Source: a virus. Taken from it: 35,628 bases of DNA. The stretch covers positions 1 to 35,628 of the IMG/VR virus record IMGVR_UViG_3300009151_000019; one strand, given 5' to 3'. Position 1 is the stretch's first letter, and every line of letters begins with the position of its first letter. The position numbers and the translations under genes are program-made. Shown in pieces: positions 1 to 35,628 of the stretch. Under the pieces are notes generated by a model that searched no databases, was not told the DNA's origin, and was given only the letters and a program-made list of their open reading frames with translations.

Positions 1-123
1 TAAAGACCCCATGCAATTGAAGTTGTAGCAGCTTGGATAGCTGAATCAATTTCTCTTGTAAGTGCTTTAATGAACGCGCCTTTTTCATTTTCAGAAGCTT
101 CAGCAGTTTCATTGTCAACAGAA
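1..123. repeat. 123-bp terminal direct repeat, left copy
   Basis: These bases are identical to 35506-35628. The repeat lies inside the major capsid gene, and the capsid frame runs through it without a break when the ends are joined. This shows the sequence is circular or circularly permuted. The likeliest explanation is overlap left by assembling a circular map, because a physical terminal repeat inside a capsid gene would be unusual. Confidence 0.95.
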
Positions 124-12125: not shown

Positions 12126-12491
12126 ATGGAAAATCTAGAAACAATTAAGCTGAACAATGTAGAGTATATGCGAAAAGACCAAATACAAGCCAATGCTTCT
12201 AACACAGAAGGGTTGAAAGCCGTCATTGTTAGAACTTACAGCGCAGGCGTTTTTTATGGTTATCTCGAATCACAAATCGGACAAGAAGTGGTTCTTAAGA
12301 ATGCTAGAAGGATGTGGCAATGGTTTGGTGCAAGCTTGTCAGAGTGTGCGCAGTCTGGAACTCCAGATGTGTCTAAATGCAAATTCCCTGAAGCCGTTAC
12401 GACTGTAAAGTTATTAAATGCCATTGAAATATTAGACCTTACACCTAAGGCACTATCGTCATTGAATTCGGTGGCAATATGGAAAGCTTAG
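12126..12491 (+). CDS. DUF6948-like phage protein
   Basis: This 121-residue protein has an AAGGAG ribosome site. The core VIVRTYSAGVFYGYLES (34-50), GQEVVLKNARRMWQWFGA (52-69), LSECAQSGTPDVSKCKFP (71-88) and LLNAIEILDLTPKA (96-109) matches a small family of phage and bacterial proteins I recognise as DUF6948; the biochemical role is unknown to me. From memory, members often end in a long Gly-X tail. Here the domain stops at 12491 (SVAIWKA), and a Gly-X coding stretch follows in the -1 frame as a separate overlapping ORF. Confidence 0.65.
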   Translation: MENLETIKLNNVEYMRKDQIQANASNTEGLKAVIVRTYSAGVFYGYLESQIGQEVVLKNARRMWQWFGASLSECAQSGTPDVSKCKFPEAVTTVKLLNAIEILDLTPKALSSLNSVAIWKA

Positions 12492-12709
12492 TTAATGATG
12501 GAAGTGGAGACGGAAATGGATACGGATACGGAAACGGAAATGGATACGGATACGGAAACGGATACGGATACGGAAACGGATACGGATACGGAGACGGAAA
12601 CGGAAACGGATACGGATACGGATACGGAGACGGAAACGGAAACGGATACGGAAGTGGAGACGGAGACGGATACGGAAGTGGAGACGGAGACGGAAACGGA
12701 AACGGATAA
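12479..12709 (+). CDS. Gly-X repeat protein overlapping the DUF6948-like gene
   Basis: This 76-residue ORF starts at the ATG at 12479, 13 bases inside the previous gene, with GGTGG four bases upstream. After MESLVND it consists of alternating glycine and N, Y, D or S to its end. The frame is -1 relative to the upstream gene. It may be translated by coupling, or it may be the C-terminal tail of the DUF6948-like protein separated by an indel. No standard slippery heptamer is seen at the junction. A competing ORF in the upstream gene's own frame (12495-12728) reads Thr-Asp/Glu repeats and cannot be excluded. Confidence 0.5.
   Translation: MESLVNDGSGDGNGYGYGNGNGYGYGNGYGYGNGYGYGDGNGNGYGYGYGDGNGNGYGSGDGDGYGSGDGDGNGNG
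12500..12706. repeat. hexanucleotide repeat tract GGANAC
   Basis: About 34 tandem units of the form GGA followed by TAC, AAC, GAC, AAT or AGT fill 207 bp. The GGA codon never varies, whereas the other codon does. Any unit gain or loss keeps all reading frames open. The opposite strand also stays open, encoding Arg-Phe/Ile/Leu repeats, as expected from the repeat rather than from a gene. Confidence 0.9.
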
Positions 12710-12724
12710 TCGGGAGAATTATAA

Positions 12725-13324
12725 ATGAGTGATAAACTACAAGATGATTTAATTTATAAACATGTAATGACTTTTTCCCATGAAGAACTTGCTGGAATGT
12801 ATACAATCATAAATAAACGAGAGCAAGAGCATTTAGAAGAGATTGAAGCTTTAAATTTAAGTTGTTCCACCATGGTTGAAATAAATTGCAAACAAGAGAG
12901 ACAGTTTCACCAAGATATTAAAAAGCTTGAAAAAGAAAACGCTCGATTGCGTGATGTTGTTAAAGGTAACATTGCTGTTATGGGAAAAATGCAAGAACGA
13001 GAAAATAAGATGATTAAACTTGAAAAAGAAAACGCTCGATTGCGTGAGGCTTTGGAGAGCCTAAAATTAACAATGGACGAGGAAAGAATGGGCAAATTAA
13101 CAAAAGAAGAAATTTCATGGTACTTAAAATATAACTGTACACTAGAGACTTTACCTAGATGTTCTAAATGTTATACCCAAAATGATGATATATACACCGA
13201 TGAATTAGATGGAGAAATGTTTTGCAAAGAGTGCCTAATAGATAGTCTCAACAATGATGAAGTCGCACTTAAAGAATTGAGAAGTTATATGAAAATCGAA
13301 ACACTAAAAGGAGGTGAAGAATGA
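12725..13324 (+). CDS. coiled-coil protein with a C-terminal zinc ribbon
   Basis: This 199-residue protein has a GGGAG ribosome site. Residues about 25-125 form a long coiled coil. Within it LEKENARLRD (68-77) and LEKENARLRE (99-108) are encoded by identical 29-bp DNA blocks, an in-frame duplication of 31 codons. The C-terminal part has CSKC (146-149) and CKEC (167-170), a likely four-cysteine zinc ribbon. Such proteins are common small early phage proteins that bind nucleic acid or host factors. The stop overlaps the next start (ATGA), whose ribosome site AGGAGGTGA is a near-perfect match. Function unknown. Confidence 0.65.
   Translation: MSDKLQDDLIYKHVMTFSHEELAGMYTIINKREQEHLEEIEALNLSCSTMVEINCKQERQFHQDIKKLEKENARLRDVVKGNIAVMGKMQERENKMIKLEKENARLREALESLKLTMDEERMGKLTKEEISWYLKYNCTLETLPRCSKCYTQNDDIYTDELDGEMFCKECLIDSLNNDEVALKELRSYMKIETLKGGEE
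12926..13047 (+). repeat. in-frame duplication with identical 29-bp ends
   Basis: The 29 bases at 12926-12954 recur exactly at 13019-13047, 93 bp (31 codons) apart. The sequence between them is diverged. Exact DNA identity over a coding repeat suggests recent duplication or gene conversion. Confidence 0.9.
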
Positions 13325-15465: not shown

Positions 15466-15571
15466 ATGCCTTGGTTTGTTCTGTCCAGGTAAAGCCATCC
15501 TCATTTGCATAAGGCATGGCAACCCATAATTCATAAATTTCATCTAGAAAATAACATTCCCCTGTTTTCAT
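15464..15571 (-). CDS. small ORF coupled to the last fibre gene
   Basis: This 35-residue ORF (MKTGECYFLDEIYELWVAMP...) starts by TAATG overlap with the fibre stop, which implies reinitiation. It is acidic with several aromatic residues. It is the last gene of the late operon and ends in the bidirectional hairpin. It could be a fibre assembly helper, but this is inferred only from position. Confidence 0.45.
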   Translation of the reverse strand: MKTGECYFLDEIYELWVAMPYANEDGFTWTEQTKA

Positions 15572-17838
15572 TAATCATGTGCCTTAATTAGTACATACCC
15601 TGCGGTTACACCGACTCCAGCAGTTGAAACTCTTGCTCTTAGTGCGGCTGCATTTGTTCCGTTTACTGTTAACTGCACCGTGCTGCTTGCTACAGATGTT
15701 AAAGGTGTACCTATTGAATACCAAGTTGTCCCGAAATCATCACTTCCTTCTAATTGAAGAACAGGGGCAGTTGTTGCAGCTCCAATGTTTATCATTAATT
15801 GAATTCCGTTTCCGCAATCTCTTGCTAGAATAATTGCAGTCGTACTGTTTAAAGTAGTTAAAACAATAGTTCTATCGACTAATTGTCTTTGAGGAATTGC
15901 AGGATAACTTGATTGAAGTCTGTTTACCGCTCTTGTAAAAGATGGAGTTGTGCCCCCGACTGTTTGAACATATCTGACGCGGTTTCCAAGAAAAGGTATG
16001 GCAGGACTTCTATACATCCCTACAGCAGTAATTCTAGGAAAATCATAAACTTTGTACCAGTTTGTCCCAGTATCGTCTGATTCCTCAATTGAAAAATCGA
16101 GAGTTGGAGAAGTTCCAGAAACAACAGTTACCGGAATGTTTACTTCGTAAGAAATACCAAAAGTAGGCGTAAAGGCAGCCGTAGTTGTAGTCGTTGTCAG
16201 CGCAGCCGAAGCAACGTCAGCCACAATTGTTGGTATTGCCAGGTTGGCAGATGTTATAGCTGCAACAGTCGTAACGGTTGTAATCGTACCAGAAGTCACC
16301 GTCACAGCAGGAGAGTTTAACACAGTCACTGGTAACTGTGAGTTTTGTGACATGTTCGAAACAGAGTTTAAAGCTACGTTCTGGAGGGTCCTGTTTAAAA
16401 CAGCAGCCATACCCATTGTAAAAGTAGTTGTAGACGCTGGAGCAACGGTACCGTTTAGTACGTGAATTTGAAAAAATAATGCCGTGCTTTCTTCTGGAAT
16501 AGACTGAACCGTTTCAGCTCTTCTTGCCATTGGAACAGTAGCTGCGATTGCCTGAAGAGAATCTGCAAGCGACACTTGCCCATCCTCAATGGTAATTTCG
16601 GCAATATGCCCAGGGGAAGCAGTCGTGTTTATCGTTGAAATAAATGCAGTAGAGTTTGTGTTGTAACCTCTTCTTTGTGTTTCTAAGGTTACGTTTGTTG
16701 CAACTGCTGCCGTGTAGTTGGCGCGAACAGCATTCCAGCCAACTAATGACAAAGTACCAGTACCAGTTGCCGGAAAGCCAGCTACGGTAAAAGTGACTGC
16801 GTTTCCAGCTACAGAAGCAATTGCATACCTTCCAGGAATTGTTCCGGCTGTTCCAGTAATTGCCTGCATAATTAAAGATTGACCAGTATTTGCAGTGGTA
16901 AATGGGTTTGATGGAATTGTAACTGTAACTGATGTTGAAGAGTTGATCGTGTAGGCAAGATTATCTCCGATAACATCCACTAGTTCGATATAAAAGTTAT
17001 TATTGACAATTCTTTGAGATAATATTGCAGCCCATCTGAGAGCCATTGGTCCAGAAAATGATTGCGTTGATCTCAAAATAGTTTCATCGTTTACAGTTGT
17101 CCCTGTTGTGATTGCCAAGTTTCCGTTGTTTTGTGAAACTGTCATCCCGGCACCAGTTTGGATAACTGTAAAAAAAGCCGAATCTACTCCAGATGGAATT
17201 GCTGATGCAAACGTCGTTCTAAATGCTTTTTGAGGAGCTGGAGTAACAACAATAGAACTTGTGTTTCTTGCCGCTGGGTTTGTTGATTGCTGTACAATTC
17301 CAACTGAACCAGAAATTTGCTGTGTTGCTGGTAAGTTAGAAACAGAAACAGAGCCAGATACTGGCTGAGTTGCTTGAAAAAATGTACCTGTTACAGGAGT
17401 TGTTGGCATTGTTGCAATTGAAACAGGCTGAGTAGCTGGAAAATTGGACACTGTTACCGAACCAGATACCGGTTGCGTCACTGGAAAATTAGATACTGAA
17501 ACAGATCCGGAAACTGGTTGGGTTACAGGATAAAATGTTCCAGTTACGGACAATGGAGACGTTAATTTAGTATCTATTGAGGCAAGACTAGCATTTCCAG
17601 TTGTTTGAAGTGCAGAAGTTGAAACTTTTCCATCGATTGACGAAAGAGAAGCATTTCCAATTACTTGGTTTGCTGCTGATGCGTCACCACCACCACCACC
17701 TCCACCGCCACCCGAAACAGGCGAGACGTTTCCATTTCCATCAGTCGTATAAACAACAACAGCGGGATAAACTCGACCTGTATTGTCTAAAACCTCAACA
17801 GCACCTTTGTTTTTCGGGGTAATTATGTTATCTGACAT
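15571..17838 (-). CDS. tail fibre-like protein with repeat-rich N terminus
   Basis: This 755-residue protein is the last large late gene, with a strong AGGAGG ribosome site. Residues 43-51 are nine glycines, a flexible hinge. Residues 98-180 repeat the unit VSGSVSVSNFP-x-TQP about five times, typical of extended phage fibres. The C-terminal 250 residues hold two related beta-sandwich units marked EESDDTGTNWYKV and EGSDDFGTTWYSI. It shares the module LQTTGNASLASIDTK with the 523-residue protein at 22201-23772. It probably forms a receptor-binding appendage. Only one cysteine is present, unlike the neighbouring exported protein. Confidence 0.65.
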   Translation of the reverse strand: MSDNIITPKNKGAVEVLDNTGRVYPAVVVYTTDGNGNVSPVSGGGGGGGGGDASAANQVIGNASLSSIDGKVSTSALQTTGNASLASIDTKLTSPLSVTGTFYPVTQPVSGSVSVSNFPVTQPVSGSVTVSNFPATQPVSIATMPTTPVTGTFFQATQPVSGSVSVSNLPATQQISGSVGIVQQSTNPAARNTSSIVVTPAPQKAFRTTFASAIPSGVDSAFFTVIQTGAGMTVSQNNGNLAITTGTTVNDETILRSTQSFSGPMALRWAAILSQRIVNNNFYIELVDVIGDNLAYTINSSTSVTVTIPSNPFTTANTGQSLIMQAITGTAGTIPGRYAIASVAGNAVTFTVAGFPATGTGTLSLVGWNAVRANYTAAVATNVTLETQRRGYNTNSTAFISTINTTASPGHIAEITIEDGQVSLADSLQAIAATVPMARRAETVQSIPEESTALFFQIHVLNGTVAPASTTTFTMGMAAVLNRTLQNVALNSVSNMSQNSQLPVTVLNSPAVTVTSGTITTVTTVAAITSANLAIPTIVADVASAALTTTTTTAAFTPTFGISYEVNIPVTVVSGTSPTLDFSIEESDDTGTNWYKVYDFPRITAVGMYRSPAIPFLGNRVRYVQTVGGTTPSFTRAVNRLQSSYPAIPQRQLVDRTIVLTTLNSTTAIILARDCGNGIQLMINIGAATTAPVLQLEGSDDFGTTWYSIGTPLTSVASSTVQLTVNGTNAAALRARVSTAGVGVTAGYVLIKAHD

Positions 17839-17846
17839 GAGTCCTC

Positions 17847-18161
17847 CTATGGATTCACTGAATTAATTCTATTTTCCCATGATGCAATTTCTTTATTGCA
17901 ATCATTGTATTTTTTGCATTGCTTAAGGAAATATTCCTTTATTTTAACCCATGAATCAACAGGAACCAAGACAGATTCTATTTTAATATCTGTCCAAGTT
18001 TTGCCATTCAATAGGACTGTATCATTAATTATGATTTGCTTATCGCTTATCGTCCACGCACAAAAGCCAGTATTAGGCGTTCTTGGACGGCAAATTGGTA
18101 CATCTGGAAGACTTGAGCATGAACTAAGAAGTAAAAGAAACAAGACGCTTAAATGCTTCAT
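17847..18161 (-). CDS. phage lipoprotein, possible outer-membrane spanin
   Basis: This 104-residue protein uses the ATG at 18161 with a GGAGGG ribosome site, inside the upstream gene. MKHLSVLFLLLLSSC is a lipoprotein signal with the lipobox LSSC, so C15 would be acylated. The mature part has Pro-rich SSLPDVPICRPRTPNTGF, then GKTWTDIKIESVLVPVDSW and QCKKYNDC. Small phage lipoproteins of this design occur in lysis cassettes and may act as Rz1-type spanins, although it is longer than typical Rz1. Its overlap with another reading frame is also Rz1-like. The partner could be the 63-residue membrane protein at 18825. Confidence 0.65.
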   Translation of the reverse strand: MKHLSVLFLLLLSSCSSLPDVPICRPRTPNTGFCAWTISDKQIIINDTVLLNGKTWTDIKIESVLVPVDSWVKIKEYFLKQCKKYNDCNKEIASWENRINSVNP

Positions 18162-18451: not shown

Positions 18452-18679
18452 CTAAGCCAGTAGCGATGCTTTTAAAGCTTCAACTTCTTTTTTAATGAGT
18501 GCCTCTAAAGCTGGGTTAAGTGCAGGAAGAATCATTGCAACAGCTGCATCATCAATTGGAGTTGCTGTTTTTGCAACGGCTTCTTTCAAAGCTTCTTCTC
18601 CTAAATCTTTAACTAGTCCAATTACTAATTTTTCTAGGTCAATACACTCAACCAATAGTTTAACTAAATCTTTTTTCAT
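18452..18679 (-). CDS. amphipathic helical protein of the lysis cassette
   Basis: This 75-residue protein begins by ATGA overlap with the 50-residue ORF and has AAGGAAGG as ribosome site. It is almost entirely amphipathic helix (KLLVECIDLEKLVIGLVKDL, ALEALIKKEVEALKASLLA). No signal or cysteine pair is seen. The function is unknown; membrane association or a role with the neighbouring small proteins is possible. Confidence 0.55.
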   Translation of the reverse strand: MKKDLVKLLVECIDLEKLVIGLVKDLGEEALKEAVAKTATPIDDAAVAMILPALNPALEALIKKEVEALKASLLA

Positions 18680-18828
18680 TTTTCCTTCCTTTTTAGTAAA
18701 TTGCCAATAAGCTGAACTAGCCCATTGGATTTTATGTTTGGATTTAATGATAGCACTTCGGAATAAATTAACGCAATAAATGGTAAAATTGTTGCTTTGT
18801 TTTCAATGATAAATAATAAAATTTTCAT
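18676..18828 (-). CDS. 50-residue membrane protein in the lysis cassette
   Basis: This ORF starts at the ATG at 18828 behind GGAG and overlaps both neighbours by four bases (ATGA at each end). The N-terminal half (ILLFIIENKATILPFIALIY) is hydrophobic with one charged break, followed by a short basic tail. Tight coupling on both sides is good evidence that it is translated. It may be a holin-like or accessory lysis peptide. Confidence 0.6.
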   Translation of the reverse strand: MKILLFIIENKATILPFIALIYSEVLSLNPNIKSNGLVQLIGNLLKRKEK

Positions 18829-19016
18829 TTTTTCTCCAAGATCAAATAGTTTTTTATAAATCTTGTATCTGCTTTAATTTCTAAAATATCCGACTTAAGA
18901 TTAGAAACTTCTGCCTGGGACTGATAAGACGATGCCACAAAACTTATAAACCAAGCCAATAATGGAGCTATCATTGTGAATAAAATAGCCTCAAGCTTTA
19001 GTTTTTTTAAGTTCAT
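18825..19016 (-). CDS. small membrane protein with coiled coil, possible holin or inner-membrane spanin
   Basis: This 63-residue protein uses the ATG at 19016 with a perfect GGAGG ribosome site; a longer upstream reading lacks one. Residues 9-30 (EAILFTMIAPLLAWFISFVA) form one membrane helix, and residues 34-55 (AEVSNLKSDILEIKADTRFI) a coiled coil. An N-terminal helix followed by an outward coiled coil is the shape of an i-spanin, though far shorter than Rz. It could also be a holin. The stop overlaps the next start (ATGA). Confidence 0.55.
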   Translation of the reverse strand: MNLKKLKLEAILFTMIAPLLAWFISFVASSYQSQAEVSNLKSDILEIKADTRFIKNYLILEKK

Positions 19017-19029
19017 AGCGCCTCCTGTG

Positions 19030-19419
19030 CTATTTAAGTTTTCTTCCAATCTTGTACAAAAGAACTTCAATCTTATCTGCTTGATCGGCAAGTAAGTTTT
19101 GAGTTCCTAGGCTCTCCTTTGGAGAAAGCGTTTTAATTATGCTCAATACATGTACAAGTGCGTTTTTTGTAGTTTCAAAATGATCATCGTTGCTTTTAGA
19201 AAGCATGTCACTTGCCTTGCTTACAATGTCGTGAAGATTTAAACTATCGCTTTTTGTTCCGATATATCTTTCAATAACAGAATCATAAAAGTCATCCATT
19301 AAGGGATAAACTTCTCCGAAAAAAGCATGATCTTCAAAAAACGTTGCGCCTTTGCTTAAATTATGTGCATGGTGCGTAAATAGGTTTATTGCCCTGTAAA
19401 GTATTGCTAGCTCAATCAT
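19030..19419 (-). CDS. Dps/ferritin-like protein
   Basis: This 129-residue helical protein overlaps the endolysin stop (ATGA) and has a GGAG ribosome site. The stretch from H19 to E50 follows the Dps ferroxidase pattern. H19-NLSKGATFFED-H31 mirrors H51...H63 of E. coli Dps with the same 12-residue step, and D46 and E50 sit at +15 and +19 from H31, as D78 and E82 do. The remaining ligand (Dps D67) would be G35, with E36 adjacent. Dps proteins oxidise iron, form 12-mers and protect DNA. Here the protein is shorter than Dps at the N terminus. Its role beside the lysis genes is unknown. Confidence 0.6.
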   Translation of the reverse strand: MIELAILYRAINLFTHHAHNLSKGATFFEDHAFFGEVYPLMDDFYDSVIERYIGTKSDSLNLHDIVSKASDMLSKSNDDHFETTKNALVHVLSIIKTLSPKESLGTQNLLADQADKIEVLLYKIGRKLK

Positions 19420-19889
19420 TTTTTATCTCCTAAGAATAAATTTCTTTCTGCGGTTCTTCTACGAAGCAAGCCTTTGGAAGTTAGCTTTATACCCCATTTA
19501 GTGTATTTACAATATGTCATGAAGGCATCTGCAATTAAGTCAGGATGCTTAGAATAAATCGCATCTCCCATAGTAGTTCCAGGGTAACATTTACCAATCC
19601 CAACGTTGTATAGAAATGAAATTAAAGCATCGTATTGATTCTGATTTGGTTGCCAATTGATCTTGCCTAAGACTTGATTAAAATAAGCGCACTTTTCTGT
19701 CACTTCATGATCGAGCCACGTTTCAGCTTGCTCACGCGTACAAGTGTCATTTTTTGACACCTTTAAACCGTTTGGATATTTAATCGTGCCTATTCCAATA
19801 GTCCATATTCCAGCTTGATCTTGGTAAGCCGAGGGGAAAAACCCCTCGAACTCTGTTATGAAATTAAGACCATTTTGAGATATCTTCAT
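19416..19889 (-). CDS. GH24 endolysin (lysozyme/muramidase)
   Basis: This 157-residue enzyme hydrolyses the N-acetylmuramic acid-N-acetylglucosamine bond of peptidoglycan to release virions. The catalytic triad is visible: E15 in ITEFEG, D24 in AYQDQ and T30 in WTIGIGT, spaced as E11, D20 and T26 of T4 lysozyme. QYDALISFLYNVGIG and the closing GLLRRRTAERNLF are also family hallmarks. There is no signal peptide, so it should need a holin. Several cysteines are present. The start at 19889 follows the stop of the exported protein gene by three bases. Confidence 0.93.
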   Translation of the reverse strand: MKISQNGLNFITEFEGFFPSAYQDQAGIWTIGIGTIKYPNGLKVSKNDTCTREQAETWLDHEVTEKCAYFNQVLGKINWQPNQNQYDALISFLYNVGIGKCYPGTTMGDAIYSKHPDLIADAFMTYCKYTKWGIKLTSKGLLRRRTAERNLFLGDKK

Positions 19890-19892
19890 TAA

Positions 19893-22199
19893 TTAAAGCC
19901 CCATACAAATTATATTAAAAGCCGTATTTGGGTTATCTCCACCAGTAGTAGCAAGAGTTGTTCTAACGCTTATTGATGTGCTAGAAATCGATTGTATTTG
20001 AGGAAGCATATTGTTACCTACAAATACCGTTGAAACCGTACAGTTTGGAGTTGCTGTTAATCCTGATAATGTACATACTGTTGGGTTTGCGGCAGTACAT
20101 GAAGATATAACGTTTCCAATTTGATTTGATATTGTTCCACTTGTGCTTGCTAATATTGCTGAAAATGTTTTAATTGCCGATGAAGTTACACCTGGAACCG
20201 TTGGCACTCCAATAGATGAAGCAACTTTAGCAGTTTTTGGTTTGTAGTCTGAAGATCCCTTTTGGCATTTAATTATTGTTGGCTGAGCATTAGCTGCACC
20301 GTTTGTAGAGTTATAAGTTTGAAATGTAAAACTAGTTGTAGAGTTTGCAGTAAATCCATGTGCAATTGCGGCTCCTGCCTGATTGTTATCCACAACACAA
20401 TTCATAGTAGTAGTTAAACCACTTACGCCATCTTTTAAATTTGTATTTAAAGGACAGGTATAGTTTGATGTTGCAACCGTACAGTTTCCATTTATCCAAT
20501 CTAAATTCTCATTAGAAACTACACCAGTGCTTGAAATCTGAGCTGAAAAAGTATCAGTACACTCATAATCATTTGCGCACTTTTCAATACCAGCGAATGA
20601 GCCGATGATAGAGCCGTAGTCTGACCAGCCCGAAATTGGAGCATCTAGCTCAAGCCCCATACCAACATTTGTTCCAGACATTGGACTAATTACACCTCCC
20701 ATAAATGCCTGAGCTGTTCCATTATATGGATATAAGACTCTAAATTGTGTAGCACTATATGCAATTAAACTAATTCCCAAAGAAGGAGATGTGTCACTAG
20801 AAACTTTACCAGTACCCACATAAGATTTAGAATATGTGCCTATTGTTGCAGTACCAGCACCAGTGTAAAAACTAACCACGTTAGAATCAAAACTTAAACC
20901 GCTTGGTAGTGTAAATAAATAATCACCACTTCCTGCCGTCCCAGCAGTTGATTGCTCATATTGAAATTTAGCTTGTAATCTTTGTCCTTTTCTCGATGCC
21001 ATTATTCTATCAGTAACAATTGTCCCCTTTGTTGGTGCAGTTGTTGTTGCACCAATTGTAATTGTTCCCGCATTAGTGTATGCATAATCTTGACTAGCTT
21101 GAGAATAGATTTTAGATTCAGGTGGAAAGTACCAGACTTTGATTACTCCTGGTATAGCGGTTGTACCAAAAATAGTCGCCGTAGATGTTCCAGATTGTTT
21201 ACCTCTAATAGATAGAGTTACGTTACTTTGTGTTGTAGAATATGAAATTGTTTGACTCATTCCCGAAGCTTGATTTATTCCAGAGGCTGTACCATTGAAA
21301 ACACTTGTTTCTCTTGCGGTATTTATTCCATCCCAAAATTGAAAAGAAGCATTGTTACCTGTTCCACTAGAGCCAAGTAATCCTTCATATTCTAATCTAT
21401 AATCACCAGCCGGAAGACTTGCAAATTTTATTGATGGAATTTGAGTTGGTGGAGCGAGTGCTGCCCCAGTTGTGACATACGTACAACTACTTTGAAATCC
21501 GAAATCGGCAAATGTTGCAGATGTTGTTGTCCATCCTCCAATACATCCTGTTGTTGTTAATGTCCCAATTAGCTTTGCCCCAGTAACGTTCTGAAATGGT
21601 GCTGATGTTCCAACAAAAGCATCATCAATAATTACAGTTCCTGTTGTTCCTGAAGAAATGATAGCGATACCATTTGAAGTAGCTGTCATGATAAATGGAA
21701 TGTTAATATTCTTCCAAGTTCCATCTGCTACTACGTTAGCGCATAATGCTGTTACCGTTACTCCAGCATTTCTAGGGCACACTTGAAGTCCGGTAACGTT
21801 AGAGCTTTTAATTTTAACTGAAGCTACACCTTGAAGACCAACTAAGTTAGCCGCATTGATTGTAGAATCTTGAGTCGTTGCAAGTGCACCAGATAAAGCT
21901 AATGATAGAGCTTTTTTACCTTCAACTTGGTTACTTAAATCTGCTGTTCCCGTTGCATTGGTAATAGTCCAGCTTGTAGTAGCTGTATTATGTTCAAAGC
22001 TAGGGTTTGCTAAAAGATTAGTGTTCCCTGTCTCAATTCTTGATTGTACACCAAGAACTTGTGTCGCCTGATTATTTGGAGTTAAAGCCGTAAATGTTGT
22101 TGGCTTAAGTGTTTGCTGATCACCACTTAAAGTAGTTGGTGGAAGTGATGCTTGAACTGAAAAAGCCCATGTTATAATAAATAGTTTTATAAGTTTCAT
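19893..22199 (-). CDS. Sec-exported, cysteine-rich beta-structured protein in the fibre cluster
   Basis: This 768-residue protein starts with MKLIKLFIITWAFSVQA-S, a clear Sec signal peptide with cleavage expected after VQA at residue 17. Such a signal is very unusual for a tail protein. The mature chain is Ser/Thr/Gly-rich and beta-structured, with a carbohydrate-binding-like N-terminal segment (NTNLLANPSFEHNTATTSW). It has 14 cysteines, many in local pairs (KCANDYEC, NCTVATSNYTC, SCTAANPTVC), against one or two in the neighbouring fibres, as expected for disulphides formed in the periplasm. It may be a fibre assembled after export, or a secreted host-modifying protein. It lies between a fibre gene and the endolysin, with a GGGG ribosome site. 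Confidence 0.65.
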   Translation of the reverse strand: MKLIKLFIITWAFSVQASLPPTTLSGDQQTLKPTTFTALTPNNQATQVLGVQSRIETGNTNLLANPSFEHNTATTSWTITNATGTADLSNQVEGKKALSLALSGALATTQDSTINAANLVGLQGVASVKIKSSNVTGLQVCPRNAGVTVTALCANVVADGTWKNINIPFIMTATSNGIAIISSGTTGTVIIDDAFVGTSAPFQNVTGAKLIGTLTTTGCIGGWTTTSATFADFGFQSSCTYVTTGAALAPPTQIPSIKFASLPAGDYRLEYEGLLGSSGTGNNASFQFWDGINTARETSVFNGTASGINQASGMSQTISYSTTQSNVTLSIRGKQSGTSTATIFGTTAIPGVIKVWYFPPESKIYSQASQDYAYTNAGTITIGATTTAPTKGTIVTDRIMASRKGQRLQAKFQYEQSTAGTAGSGDYLFTLPSGLSFDSNVVSFYTGAGTATIGTYSKSYVGTGKVSSDTSPSLGISLIAYSATQFRVLYPYNGTAQAFMGGVISPMSGTNVGMGLELDAPISGWSDYGSIIGSFAGIEKCANDYECTDTFSAQISSTGVVSNENLDWINGNCTVATSNYTCPLNTNLKDGVSGLTTTMNCVVDNNQAGAAIAHGFTANSTTSFTFQTYNSTNGAANAQPTIIKCQKGSSDYKPKTAKVASSIGVPTVPGVTSSAIKTFSAILASTSGTISNQIGNVISSCTAANPTVCTLSGLTATPNCTVSTVFVGNNMLPQIQSISSTSISVRTTLATTGGDNPNTAFNIICMGL

Positions 22200-22200
22200 A

Positions 22201-23772
22201 TTAACCCCACGTTATTGAAATCATTTGAGCCGTTGCAGTAGATACCGCAATTACTGAAATTGTAGCAACTGCTGGAAAATCTTCCGATCTTCCCGGTGCA
22301 AATAAATGACCGTTAGTTGCTGTTGCAGTACCACCCATGCAAACTCTTAAGTTTACTGAGTTATTATCATCAGCTTGAATTTTTACCCATTTTGCTGTTG
22401 CTGGTGGAGCAAATGTTTGTGCTGTTACTCCGTCAAGAGTTACAGATTGCACATACGATGCTGCTGCTCCAAGAGATATGACCTTTAAAAGACCAGATGT
22501 ATTTACTGTTAATGGAGAAATATTTCCAGCCGTATAAGTCGGAGAAGTAGATACGACAGAAGCCTGTACCATTGGACCAGTGTTAGCCCCTAAGGCTGTG
22601 TTTGGGGTAATGTTTAGTTTTGATGCTGTTGCATCAAGAGCAAACCCTGTGATGGCTGCTGGAGGCGTTAAAGTGGTAATTTGAGCCGCTGGCAATACTA
22701 CTGGAACCGAAGAAACCGATAACTGTTGTCCAAGAGTAATTGCTGCACCAGCATTATCTTGAAGTTGAGCCTTTACAACGCTTGTGTTTGTTAATGGATT
22801 TATAGTTACTGTTGATAATGGCGTTAATGTTGATAATTGCGCAGCTGGTAATACCACAGGTACTGATGCTGCTGCCAATGCTTGTCCCAAAGCAGGAATT
22901 TTAGTATCAATAGATGACAATGAACTATTTCCAGTTGTTTGCAATGTTGAAGTTGCAGCAAGAGTTGGAAGTGTAATTGTTCCTGTAACATTGTTTATAT
23001 TTCCAATATTATTTGAACCAGCTGGCAATGGATTATCTAGCATTACATTAGAAACTTTATTGCTAGCAATAAAATTAACAAATGCAGTTCCTGATGATAC
23101 CGTTGCACCTTTAAGTCTAAAATAAGCATAGCCCACAACATTTGCTTGACCAGAAGTATTTGCCGTAAATGTATTTGAACTATTTCCAGTGGCAAGAGAA
23201 ACATAAGTCGTTGGATACCAGGTCGAATTGTCTTGAGAAAGTTCAACAGTTATAGTTCCAGTCCAAGTCCCTTCTACAGTAAATGCAACAGTTCCATAGT
23301 TTGTAGTTGCAATTTGAGCTGATGCTGTTCCAGTAATAGAACCAGATGCAGCCGTGTCTACGTTTAAAGCAGCGTTACTTACTGGCTGAGTTGTCCACGC
23401 GCTATCTACTTTTAACGCATTTAAAGCAGAAACGGCGGCTAAGTTTGTTCCATCGCCAATTCTAACTGATGAAGGGTCAGCTCCATTATGTTTAATTCCT
23501 ACTGAAATATCTCCAGCGTTAATTGTAACGTTTGTTGTTCCAGTAACGTCGGTAATGCAAACAGGAATTGGGGTATGATTGTATGGGCTTGTTGTATCTA
23601 AAGTAACTGGGTACCAATTGCCATCGTCTTTCTTAACCATCATTCCCGAAGGAAGTGGAAAATTGTTTATTGGTGCAGCATCGTCATTTCTAACAAATGT
23701 TAAAGAATCATTATCGTAAAAAGAAATTCCATCCGTTGTTAATTTTATTGGAGGATATACAAAAGTTGTCAT
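22201..23772 (-). CDS. tail fibre-like structural protein
   Basis: This 523-residue protein has an AAGGGG ribosome site and follows the 119-residue gene by one base. It begins with a compact beta domain and contains the sandwich marker ELSQDNSTWYPTTY at about 180-193. The middle carries two copies of ASVPVVLPAAQLSTLTP (second copy SSVPVVLPAAQITTLTP), and LQTTGNSSLSSIDTK, which is also found in the 755-residue fibre. This modular, Ala/Thr-rich make-up is usual for podoviral and uncultured-phage fibres. Receptor binding or attachment of other fibres is the likely job. Confidence 0.6.
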   Translation of the reverse strand: MTTFVYPPIKLTTDGISFYDNDSLTFVRNDDAAPINNFPLPSGMMVKKDDGNWYPVTLDTTSPYNHTPIPVCITDVTGTTNVTINAGDISVGIKHNGADPSSVRIGDGTNLAAVSALNALKVDSAWTTQPVSNAALNVDTAASGSITGTASAQIATTNYGTVAFTVEGTWTGTITVELSQDNSTWYPTTYVSLATGNSSNTFTANTSGQANVVGYAYFRLKGATVSSGTAFVNFIASNKVSNVMLDNPLPAGSNNIGNINNVTGTITLPTLAATSTLQTTGNSSLSSIDTKIPALGQALAAASVPVVLPAAQLSTLTPLSTVTINPLTNTSVVKAQLQDNAGAAITLGQQLSVSSVPVVLPAAQITTLTPPAAITGFALDATASKLNITPNTALGANTGPMVQASVVSTSPTYTAGNISPLTVNTSGLLKVISLGAAASYVQSVTLDGVTAQTFAPPATAKWVKIQADDNNSVNLRVCMGGTATATNGHLFAPGRSEDFPAVATISVIAVSTATAQMISITWG

Positions 23773-34670: not shown

Positions 34671-35628
34671 TTAAGCTAATTTGATTACTACGTTATGTCC
34701 TGGAGCATCGCAACCAAGTTGGAAGTATCCACCAACGCGTAGTTCTACAGCGTCAGCAGTTGCTTCTCTTAGTACTTTGTTTCCATCTAGATCAAGGATC
34801 CTAACTGGCTCTTTCAAGCTGTAAAGTTTCCATGATTTCATAGTTAAACCGTAAGCATAGTTAATTGGGCAGAATGGATCTGCAACGCAATTAGAAACAC
34901 CTTTGTTTGTTTTAACTTGAATGCCTTCAAAACCGATATCGCCACGAGCTGCAGCAGTTGTAACCATATACTGAACTTTTGAACCAAGAGCAAGCTCAAG
35001 GTTTGACCAGTCAGTGTAGTTCATCATTACGATTTCTGGACGACCACCTTCTCTGTTACAACGAGTTAATCCTTTAACAAGTGCTTCTTCGATTGAGTAA
35101 GAAGAACCATCAAAACGTAATCCACCTAAACGAGTTGGATCAGCCGAACGGTCTACAGAAAAGAAGTTATCTCCTGAAGTTGGAGCAACGAAAGGAATCC
35201 AAGCTGATAAGCCTGAAAGTTTTGCGTTTCTATCGCCTTCAGTAAAAATAAAGTCACCAGCAGCGATTGAAGTGATTGAAGAAAGAGCAGCACTTAAGCT
35301 AATCAATCCGCTATCTCTGTTTACAGCTGTAATCTGAAGTGCTCCGCCTACTCTTAAGGCACCAGTTGAAGCTGCTGCAGCGAAAACGATCTTTTGACCG
35401 ATTTCAAACTTAACAACATCGTCTGCGTTAGAAAGAGTAAAGAAAGCGTTTGAAGTTGAAAATCCAGAAGCAGAAATATTAGCCAATGCTCCTGATCCGT
35501 CACCGTAAAGACCCCATGCAATTGAAGTTGTAGCAGCTTGGATAGCTGAATCAATTTCTCTTGTAAGTGCTTTAATGAACGCGCCTTTTTCATTTTCAGA
35601 AGCTTCAGCAGTTTCATTGTCAACAGAA
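34671..35628 (-). CDS. major capsid protein, main part (start lies at the left end)
   Basis: This is the larger part of the capsid gene: the window's right edge corresponds to about residue 89, and the stop is at 34671. Together with 1-386 it gives 406 residues. The segment around residues 290-330 (GDIGFEGIQVKTNKGVSNCV) and the C-terminal strand-rich end (AVELRVGGYFQLGCDAPGHN) look like the P-domain and spine of an HK97-type coat. The central MMNYTDWSNLELALGSKVQY segment also suits this fold. An apparent start at 35486 (MANISAS) is internal and should not be used. The family is inferred from context and pattern. Confidence 0.85.
   Translation of the reverse strand, partial: SVDNETAEASENEKGAFIKALTREIDSAIQAATTSIAWGLYGDGSGALANISASGFSTSNAFFTLSNADDVVKFEIGQKIVFAAAASTGALRVGGALQITAVNRDSGLISLSAALSSITSIAAGDFIFTEGDRNAKLSGLSAWIPFVAPTSGDNFFSVDRSADPTRLGGLRFDGSSYSIEEALVKGLTRCNREGGRPEIVMMNYTDWSNLELALGSKVQYMVTTAAARGDIGFEGIQVKTNKGVSNCVADPFCPINYAYGLTMKSWKLYSLKEPVRILDLDGNKVLREATADAVELRVGGYFQLGCDAPGHNVVIKLA
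35506..35628. repeat. 123-bp terminal direct repeat, right copy
   Basis: This is identical to 1-123. See the left copy; the true genome length is 35,505 bp when one copy is removed. Confidence 0.95.

Follow-up and report, generated by a model that had tools for sequence, protein, structure and literature searches.

A predicted exported, cysteine-rich phage protein with a tip domain homologous to that of a Bdellovibrio surface adhesin

Tail fibres and minor tail proteins of Caudoviricetes with CBM and C1q/TNF-like domains are assembled in the cytoplasm and are not known to carry signal peptides or paired cysteines, in contrast to what is predicted for P0001, a protein encoded among the fibre genes of the window examined here (the whole 35,628-nucleotide IMG/VR record IMGVR_UViG_3300009151_000019). 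What kind of protein is this, and where would it act? An earlier note, made from the sequence alone, had described 768 residues, a clean signal with a VQA cleavage site and 14 cysteines, and each of these was confirmed, with the coordinates exact on the minus strand. As judged from sequence, P0001 typifies a new and recurrent phage gene type that is built from a known predator-adhesin module.

The record bears a 123-bp direct terminal repeat, with exact copies at 1-123 and 35506-35628, so that the genome is probably complete, circularly assembled and about 35.5 kb long. A capsid gene spans both ends of the record (window 1-123 / 35506-35628), and the portal, adaptor and capsid proteins are similar to those of SU10/P22-like podoviruses. 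At window positions 12479-12728, 24-bp tandem repeats encode Gly-Asn-Tyr and Asp-Thr-Glu repeats in plus-strand open reading frames, and the opposite strand is open in an Arg-rich frame. The start codon of P0001 lies 1 base past the stop codon of the gene for a 523-aa fibre protein and is preceded by a Shine-Dalgarno-like stretch, GTGGGG. P0001 is followed in order by an endolysin, a Dps-like protein, a small transmembrane (TM) protein, two small proteins and a lipoprotein (loci compared with the window are cited by L number):

22201..23772, minus strand: fibre protein without signal, 523 aa, 2 Cys, upstream of P0001 (ORF)
19893..22199, minus strand: P0001, predicted signal-bearing, Cys-rich fibre-like adhesin, 768 aa (ORF and relatives)
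19416..19889, minus strand: endolysin (phage lysozyme; PF00959, 4e-26; phrog_7)
19030-19419: Dps/starvation-regulator-like protein, 129 aa, within the lysis cassette
18825..19016, minus strand: small single-TM protein, holin-like, from an internal ATG (look-alikes in L003, L004 and L006)
18452..18679, minus strand: 75-aa lysis-cassette protein (44% identity to a 71-aa protein of L003)
17847..18161, minus strand: lipoprotein with lipobox SSC, last of the lysis cassette (43% identity in L003)
15571..17838, minus strand: second fibre-like protein without signal, 755 aa, 1 Cys (ORF)

A Dps-like protein is also encoded near the adhesin gene in L004 (51%) and L006 (43%).

No match to P0001 was returned from Pfam or PHROGs, or from named phages by tblastn. 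A modular build is nonetheless discernible from alignments and structural models:

22149..22199, minus strand: predicted Sec signal peptide, residues 1-17 (MKLIKLFIITWAFSVQA; rule-based scan)
21585..22043, minus strand: CBM-like jelly roll (NLLxNPSFE; NLLANPSFE in P0001), residues 53-205, C141/C153
21126..21575, minus strand: TNF-like tip domain, residues 209-358, C219/C239, homologous to the Bd2734 tip (8OKW)
20610..21104, minus strand: beta domain, residues 366-530, common to phi1422 gp68 (hhalign A7 vs A8)
20220..20588, minus strand: module with three Cys pairs, residues 538-660 (alignments A3/A4)
19896..20174, minus strand: exchangeable C-terminal module, residues 676-768, C701/C709 and C720/C765

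The TNF-like domain connects the protein to predatory bacteria. The sole strong PDB match of P0001 by sequence is 8OKW (residues 209-355, phmmer E 2.9e-12), which is also found by a profile search (5.6e-19), ranks first in Foldseek (2e-10, TM to target 0.84-0.85, 27-28% identity), and is matched by the divergent relative in L017 (1.8e-4). The structure covers residues 691-843 of Bd2734, the tip of a surface fibre of the mosaic adhesive trimer (MAT) type in Bdellovibrio bacteriovorus HD100; loss of Bd2734 is reported to cause a slight defect in prey entry (PMC10769870). A figure legend in the same paper describes disulphides in TNF-like tips (PMC10769870), and both C219 and C239 of P0001 align with cysteines of the Bd2734 tip. 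The fold of the P0001 tip domain is thus one known from adhesive MAT tips. The MAT superfamily is marked by a conserved N-terminal domain of about 130 aa that follows the signal (NCBIfam Bdello_MAT_N), and this domain had no match in P0001 or any relative tested (positive control L039/L040, 2e-63); P0001 is therefore not itself a MAT. A candidate MAT match in L043 was rejected as a chance match around one peptide in a protein without a signal.

Of the remaining modules, the jelly roll resembles carbohydrate-binding folds both by profile (A2 against the galactanase 9fli, E 1e-4 over residues 51-115) and by Foldseek (CBM16 2zew, TMt 0.70). In L004/L006, another version takes the place of the beta domain. 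The module at 538-660 follows the pattern KC..EC..FSAxISxxGVVSxENLDWINGNC...CQK, with its cysteines at C541/C547, C573/C582 and C601/C645. The AlphaFold model of P0001 has an overall pLDDT of 60, with domains 1 and 2 and the module at 545-648 mostly at 60-90.

The N terminus of P0001 displays the parts of a canonical Sec signal, namely K2/K5, a hydrophobic core and the VQA site at residue 17, with cleavage predicted between MKLIKLFIITWAFSVQA and SLPP; a helix occupies residues 3-15 of the AF2 model. Signals were called by a simple n/h/c-region rule, and 2.9% of shuffled P0001 N termini also satisfy this rule, so that the call on this single sequence constitutes modest evidence and conservation provides the main support. 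The earlier note had proposed a search for homologues among uncultured phages, and searches of IMG/VR recovered relatives in L003-L011, L017 and L021-L023, all with signal-like N termini; in L008 and L017, a D/E close to the cleavage site made the N terminus fail the strict rule. The remaining matches to the rule in the relatives' loci are mostly lipoproteins or further exported genes. A similar gene is thus present in at least 12 other uncultured phages and in one isolated Bdellovibrio phage. Two further candidates, in L012/L013, were rejected as relatives, having no signal and only the CBM-like segment in common. A second signal-bearing, Cys-rich protein (185 and 240 aa, respectively) is encoded directly after the adhesin at L010:8664-9221 and L022:8690-9412.

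The cysteines offer a second indication of export. The 14 cysteines of P0001 make up 1.8% of its residues, and the fibre neighbours, to which the earlier note had ascribed one or two, were counted at 2 (523 aa) and 1 (755 aa); the mean content is 2.0% in the signal-bearing proteins compared to 0.4% in the upstream fibres. Among the full-length proteins checked, namely 12 members of the family together with phi1422 gp68 and the protein in L027, the number of mature cysteines is even in 14/14, compared to 16/24 of the other genes that have 4 or more Cys. With full independence of the proteins, which does not hold entirely, the chance of 14 even counts would be 2^-14 = 6e-5. Moreover, cysteines are conserved, gained and lost two at a time: C141/C153 are kept in all sequences having the jelly-roll domain, C219/C239 are kept or lost jointly save for a single column that is shifted in L017, and the same holds for C541/C547, C573/C582 and C601/C645 with the exception of C541/C547 in L023. 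Cytoplasmic proteins of the window also contain cysteines (10 in a 1084-aa tail protein and 4 in the lysozyme), so it is not their number but their pairing, and the loss of pairs together, that is diagnostic. Conserved signals, paired cysteines and the alignment with 8OKW together support the earlier proposal of export and disulphide folding, both of which are strongly predicted for P0001.

A predatory host of the Bdellovibrionota type, also suggested previously, gains support from three independent leads: the 8OKW match, the isolated Bdellovibrio phage and a provirus contig. Phage phi1422 is an isolated myovirus (PMC3391216), and a term search of its paper returned no mention of mass spectrometry (PMC3391216). 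Its gp68 (NC_019525), annotated as hypothetical, lies directly after the tail-fibre gene gp67, begins with the Sec-type signal MKFMIAFIIALFSVTMATAQ and contains 8 Cys. It has one beta domain in common with the P0001 family (hhalign E 1e-7, 94% probability), while the whole-protein profile comparison between the two was not significant; the AlphaFold model of gp68 has a pLDDT of 37, too low for the model to be of use. A further phi1422 product, gp75 (L025:44298-44810), is a signal-bearing protein of 170 aa encoded close behind gp73, which is annotated as a tail fiber. The closest relative of gp68, a protein in L027 with 40% identity over about 400 aa, likewise has a signal and resides on a provirus contig with a genuine MAT gene at its end (Bdello_MAT_N 2e-63). 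This MAT fibre gene (L040:1371-4466; 1031 aa), at the edge of the contig encoding the gp68 relative, may be either phage cargo or host flank. Two scans of genome contigs revealed no cellular relative, so that a single domain carries the connection to MATs, and searches with the terminase and portal returned very distant phages only, hence no host assignment from those genes. The phage in the window probably infects Bdellovibrio-like predatory bacteria.

Where, then, would the protein act? The explanation that we favour, although we hold it to be about evenly balanced between right and wrong, is that P0001 is an adhesin which the phage encodes for export and which would act either on the envelope of the predator cell under infection or inside the prey bdelloplast. 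A precedent for an exported protein whose gene lies directly behind that of a receptor-binding protein is T5 Llp (PMC9586334). P0001 would be made together with the lysis genes late in infection, exported by the Sec pathway with cleavage of its signal, and folded in the periplasm, where its cysteines would pair. The product would be a fibre-like and perhaps trimeric molecule, combining a jelly roll resembling a CBM and a TNF/lectin-like tip such as the predators display on their MATs with exchangeable beta modules, and it may bind glycans. It would act outside the phage-producing cytoplasm: since predator hosts multiply inside prey, both the envelope of the predator and the bdelloplast of the prey may be within reach of an exported protein. 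Its purpose would most likely be to mask phage receptors or debris, or to modify predator or prey adhesion. Against this explanation stands the absence from P0001 of a membrane anchor or lipobox to explain retention at the surface, as do the position of the gene directly after a fibre gene and the wholly signal-bearing fibre cassette of L007, which would suit virion fibres. Superinfection-exclusion proteins are also stated to be expressed early (PMC9586334), unlike P0001, for which the gene position suggests late expression.

In a rival explanation, possible but doubtful, P0001 is a receptor-binding fibre of the virion that is completed outside the cytoplasm: it would be exported, would fold and form its disulphides in the periplasm, and would attach to virions when lysis breaks the inner membrane, perhaps via the upstream signal-less fibre. 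Such a role is favoured by the gene's place immediately after a fibre gene at most of the loci, by its mosaic tip-like domains, by Foldseek matches among viral proteins to tail fibres and minor tail proteins, and by a collar-like tail-fibre segment in L011. Between its capsid and lysis modules, L007 (5684-9962) encodes three consecutive signal-bearing fibre-type proteins (390, 373 and 661 aa), of which the middle one has the same position as, and repeats in common with, the window's signal-less 523-aa fibre. A soil viral contig outside the family (L034:6222-10319) also encodes a signal-bearing fibre, of 1063 aa with 6 Cys. Two signal-bearing proteins of about 150 aa follow it, C1q-like by eye and with 2 Cys each. 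The theme of exported fibres may reach beyond phages of predators.

The patterns of gene sharing lean the other way. The virion types of the phages that encode the adhesin differ, with tape-measure proteins in L003 and L005 and podovirus-type genes in L004, L006 and L007. The window and the tape-measure phage L003 have in common only the adhesin (56%), the endolysin, the 75-aa protein and the lipoprotein, and in L005, L009, L010, L011, L017, L021 and L023 the adhesin is the sole gene in common with the window. Across virion types, the adhesin gene therefore moves either by itself or in the company of lysis genes, and not with the genes for the virion. Accordingly, of its earlier placement in a tail fibre cluster, the location within a fibre cassette stands, but the gene sits at the junction of fibre and lysis genes and is more often held in common with the latter. 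A fibre of the virion would need an N terminus that fits its tail, yet the N terminus of the adhesin is conserved across phages with unrelated tails, while the upstream fibres and virion genes are not in common; this portability would argue against a dedicated virion-attachment domain, and no known domain of that kind was found there in Pfam or PHROGs. Several of the loci also hold other fibre genes without a signal, and we know of no tailed phage shown to complete its fibres outside the cytoplasm. These patterns lean towards a secreted adhesin or effector over a virion fibre. A broader proposal, that tailed phages of predators assemble some of their receptor-binding machinery in the host periplasm, as Sec-exported, disulphide-bonded fibres that join the virion only at lysis and exchange tip modules with the predators' MATs, is somewhat more doubtful still.

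A narrower form of the exported adhesin, strict superinfection exclusion or receptor shielding in the manner of T5 Llp or Cor, appears unlikely. P0001 would here block the phage's own receptor and stop progeny from sticking to the debris of the lysed host. Like Llp, it is a predicted exported protein encoded next to a receptor-binding gene (PMC9586334), and it has adhesin domains and often lysis genes nearby. However, the known cases are small lipoproteins, whereas proteins of the P0001 type span 500-800 aa without a lipobox (Ser follows the predicted cleavage site of P0001), and the window encodes a separate lipoprotein at 17847-18161. Superinfection-exclusion proteins are also stated to be expressed early (PMC9586334), unlike P0001, for which the gene position suggests late expression.

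Two other explanations are very improbable. Were the N-terminal hydrophobic stretch not an export signal, P0001 would be an ordinary cytoplasmic tail fibre like its neighbours, and the passage of shuffled N termini through the signal rule allows for this, but the signal-like N termini of all relatives, the paired cysteines and the homology to an exported Bdellovibrio surface fibre speak against it. Similarly, the Bd2734-type domain could indicate a predator surface-adhesin gene carried as a passenger with no role in the phage cycle, yet the gene occupies a fixed site in many unrelated phages, has diverged and re-assorted within them, lacks the MAT N-terminal domain and has no close cellular relatives in the two scans of genome contigs. 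A chance signal and contamination were considered and rejected.

MAT fibres have been described as the molecules by which Bdellovibrio recognises prey, and they look similar to the tail fibres of phages. A family of phage genes whose products are predicted to be exported and disulphide-bonded, with a MAT tip domain, provides a concrete link between tail-fibre-like modules and exported surface proteins, and the isolated phage phi1422 makes this link between phages and MATs testable. Should P0001-type products be present in virions, it would no longer hold as a rule that tailed phages make their fibres exclusively in the cytoplasm; should they be absent, the phages of predators would be altering the surface of the predator or of its prey.

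Among known systems, the tail fibres and minor tail proteins of Caudoviricetes with CBM and C1q/TNF-like domains are comparable to P0001 in domain types and in their position within fibre cassettes; no papers on signal-bearing tail fibres were found in the open-licence literature. In T5, the exported protein Llp is encoded directly downstream of the receptor-binding protein (PMC9586334), much as the P0001 gene lies directly downstream of a fibre gene and encodes a predicted exported product, but Llp and Cor are small lipoproteins (PMC9586334) and P0001 would be a large multi-domain soluble adhesin. The gp68 of phi1422 is similarly placed directly behind a signal-less tail fibre gene and has a Sec-type signal, an even number of cysteines and the one beta domain, although this domain is its only detectable homology with P0001. 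From the MAT fibres, typified by Bd2734, P0001 differs in being phage-encoded and without Bdello_MAT_N, in the internal rather than terminal location of its TNF-like domain, and in its extra CBM-like and Cys-paired modules, but the two are alike in their signal peptides (that of P0001 called by rule), their mosaic, fibre-like build, their homologous TNF-like tips and the aligned cysteines within them.
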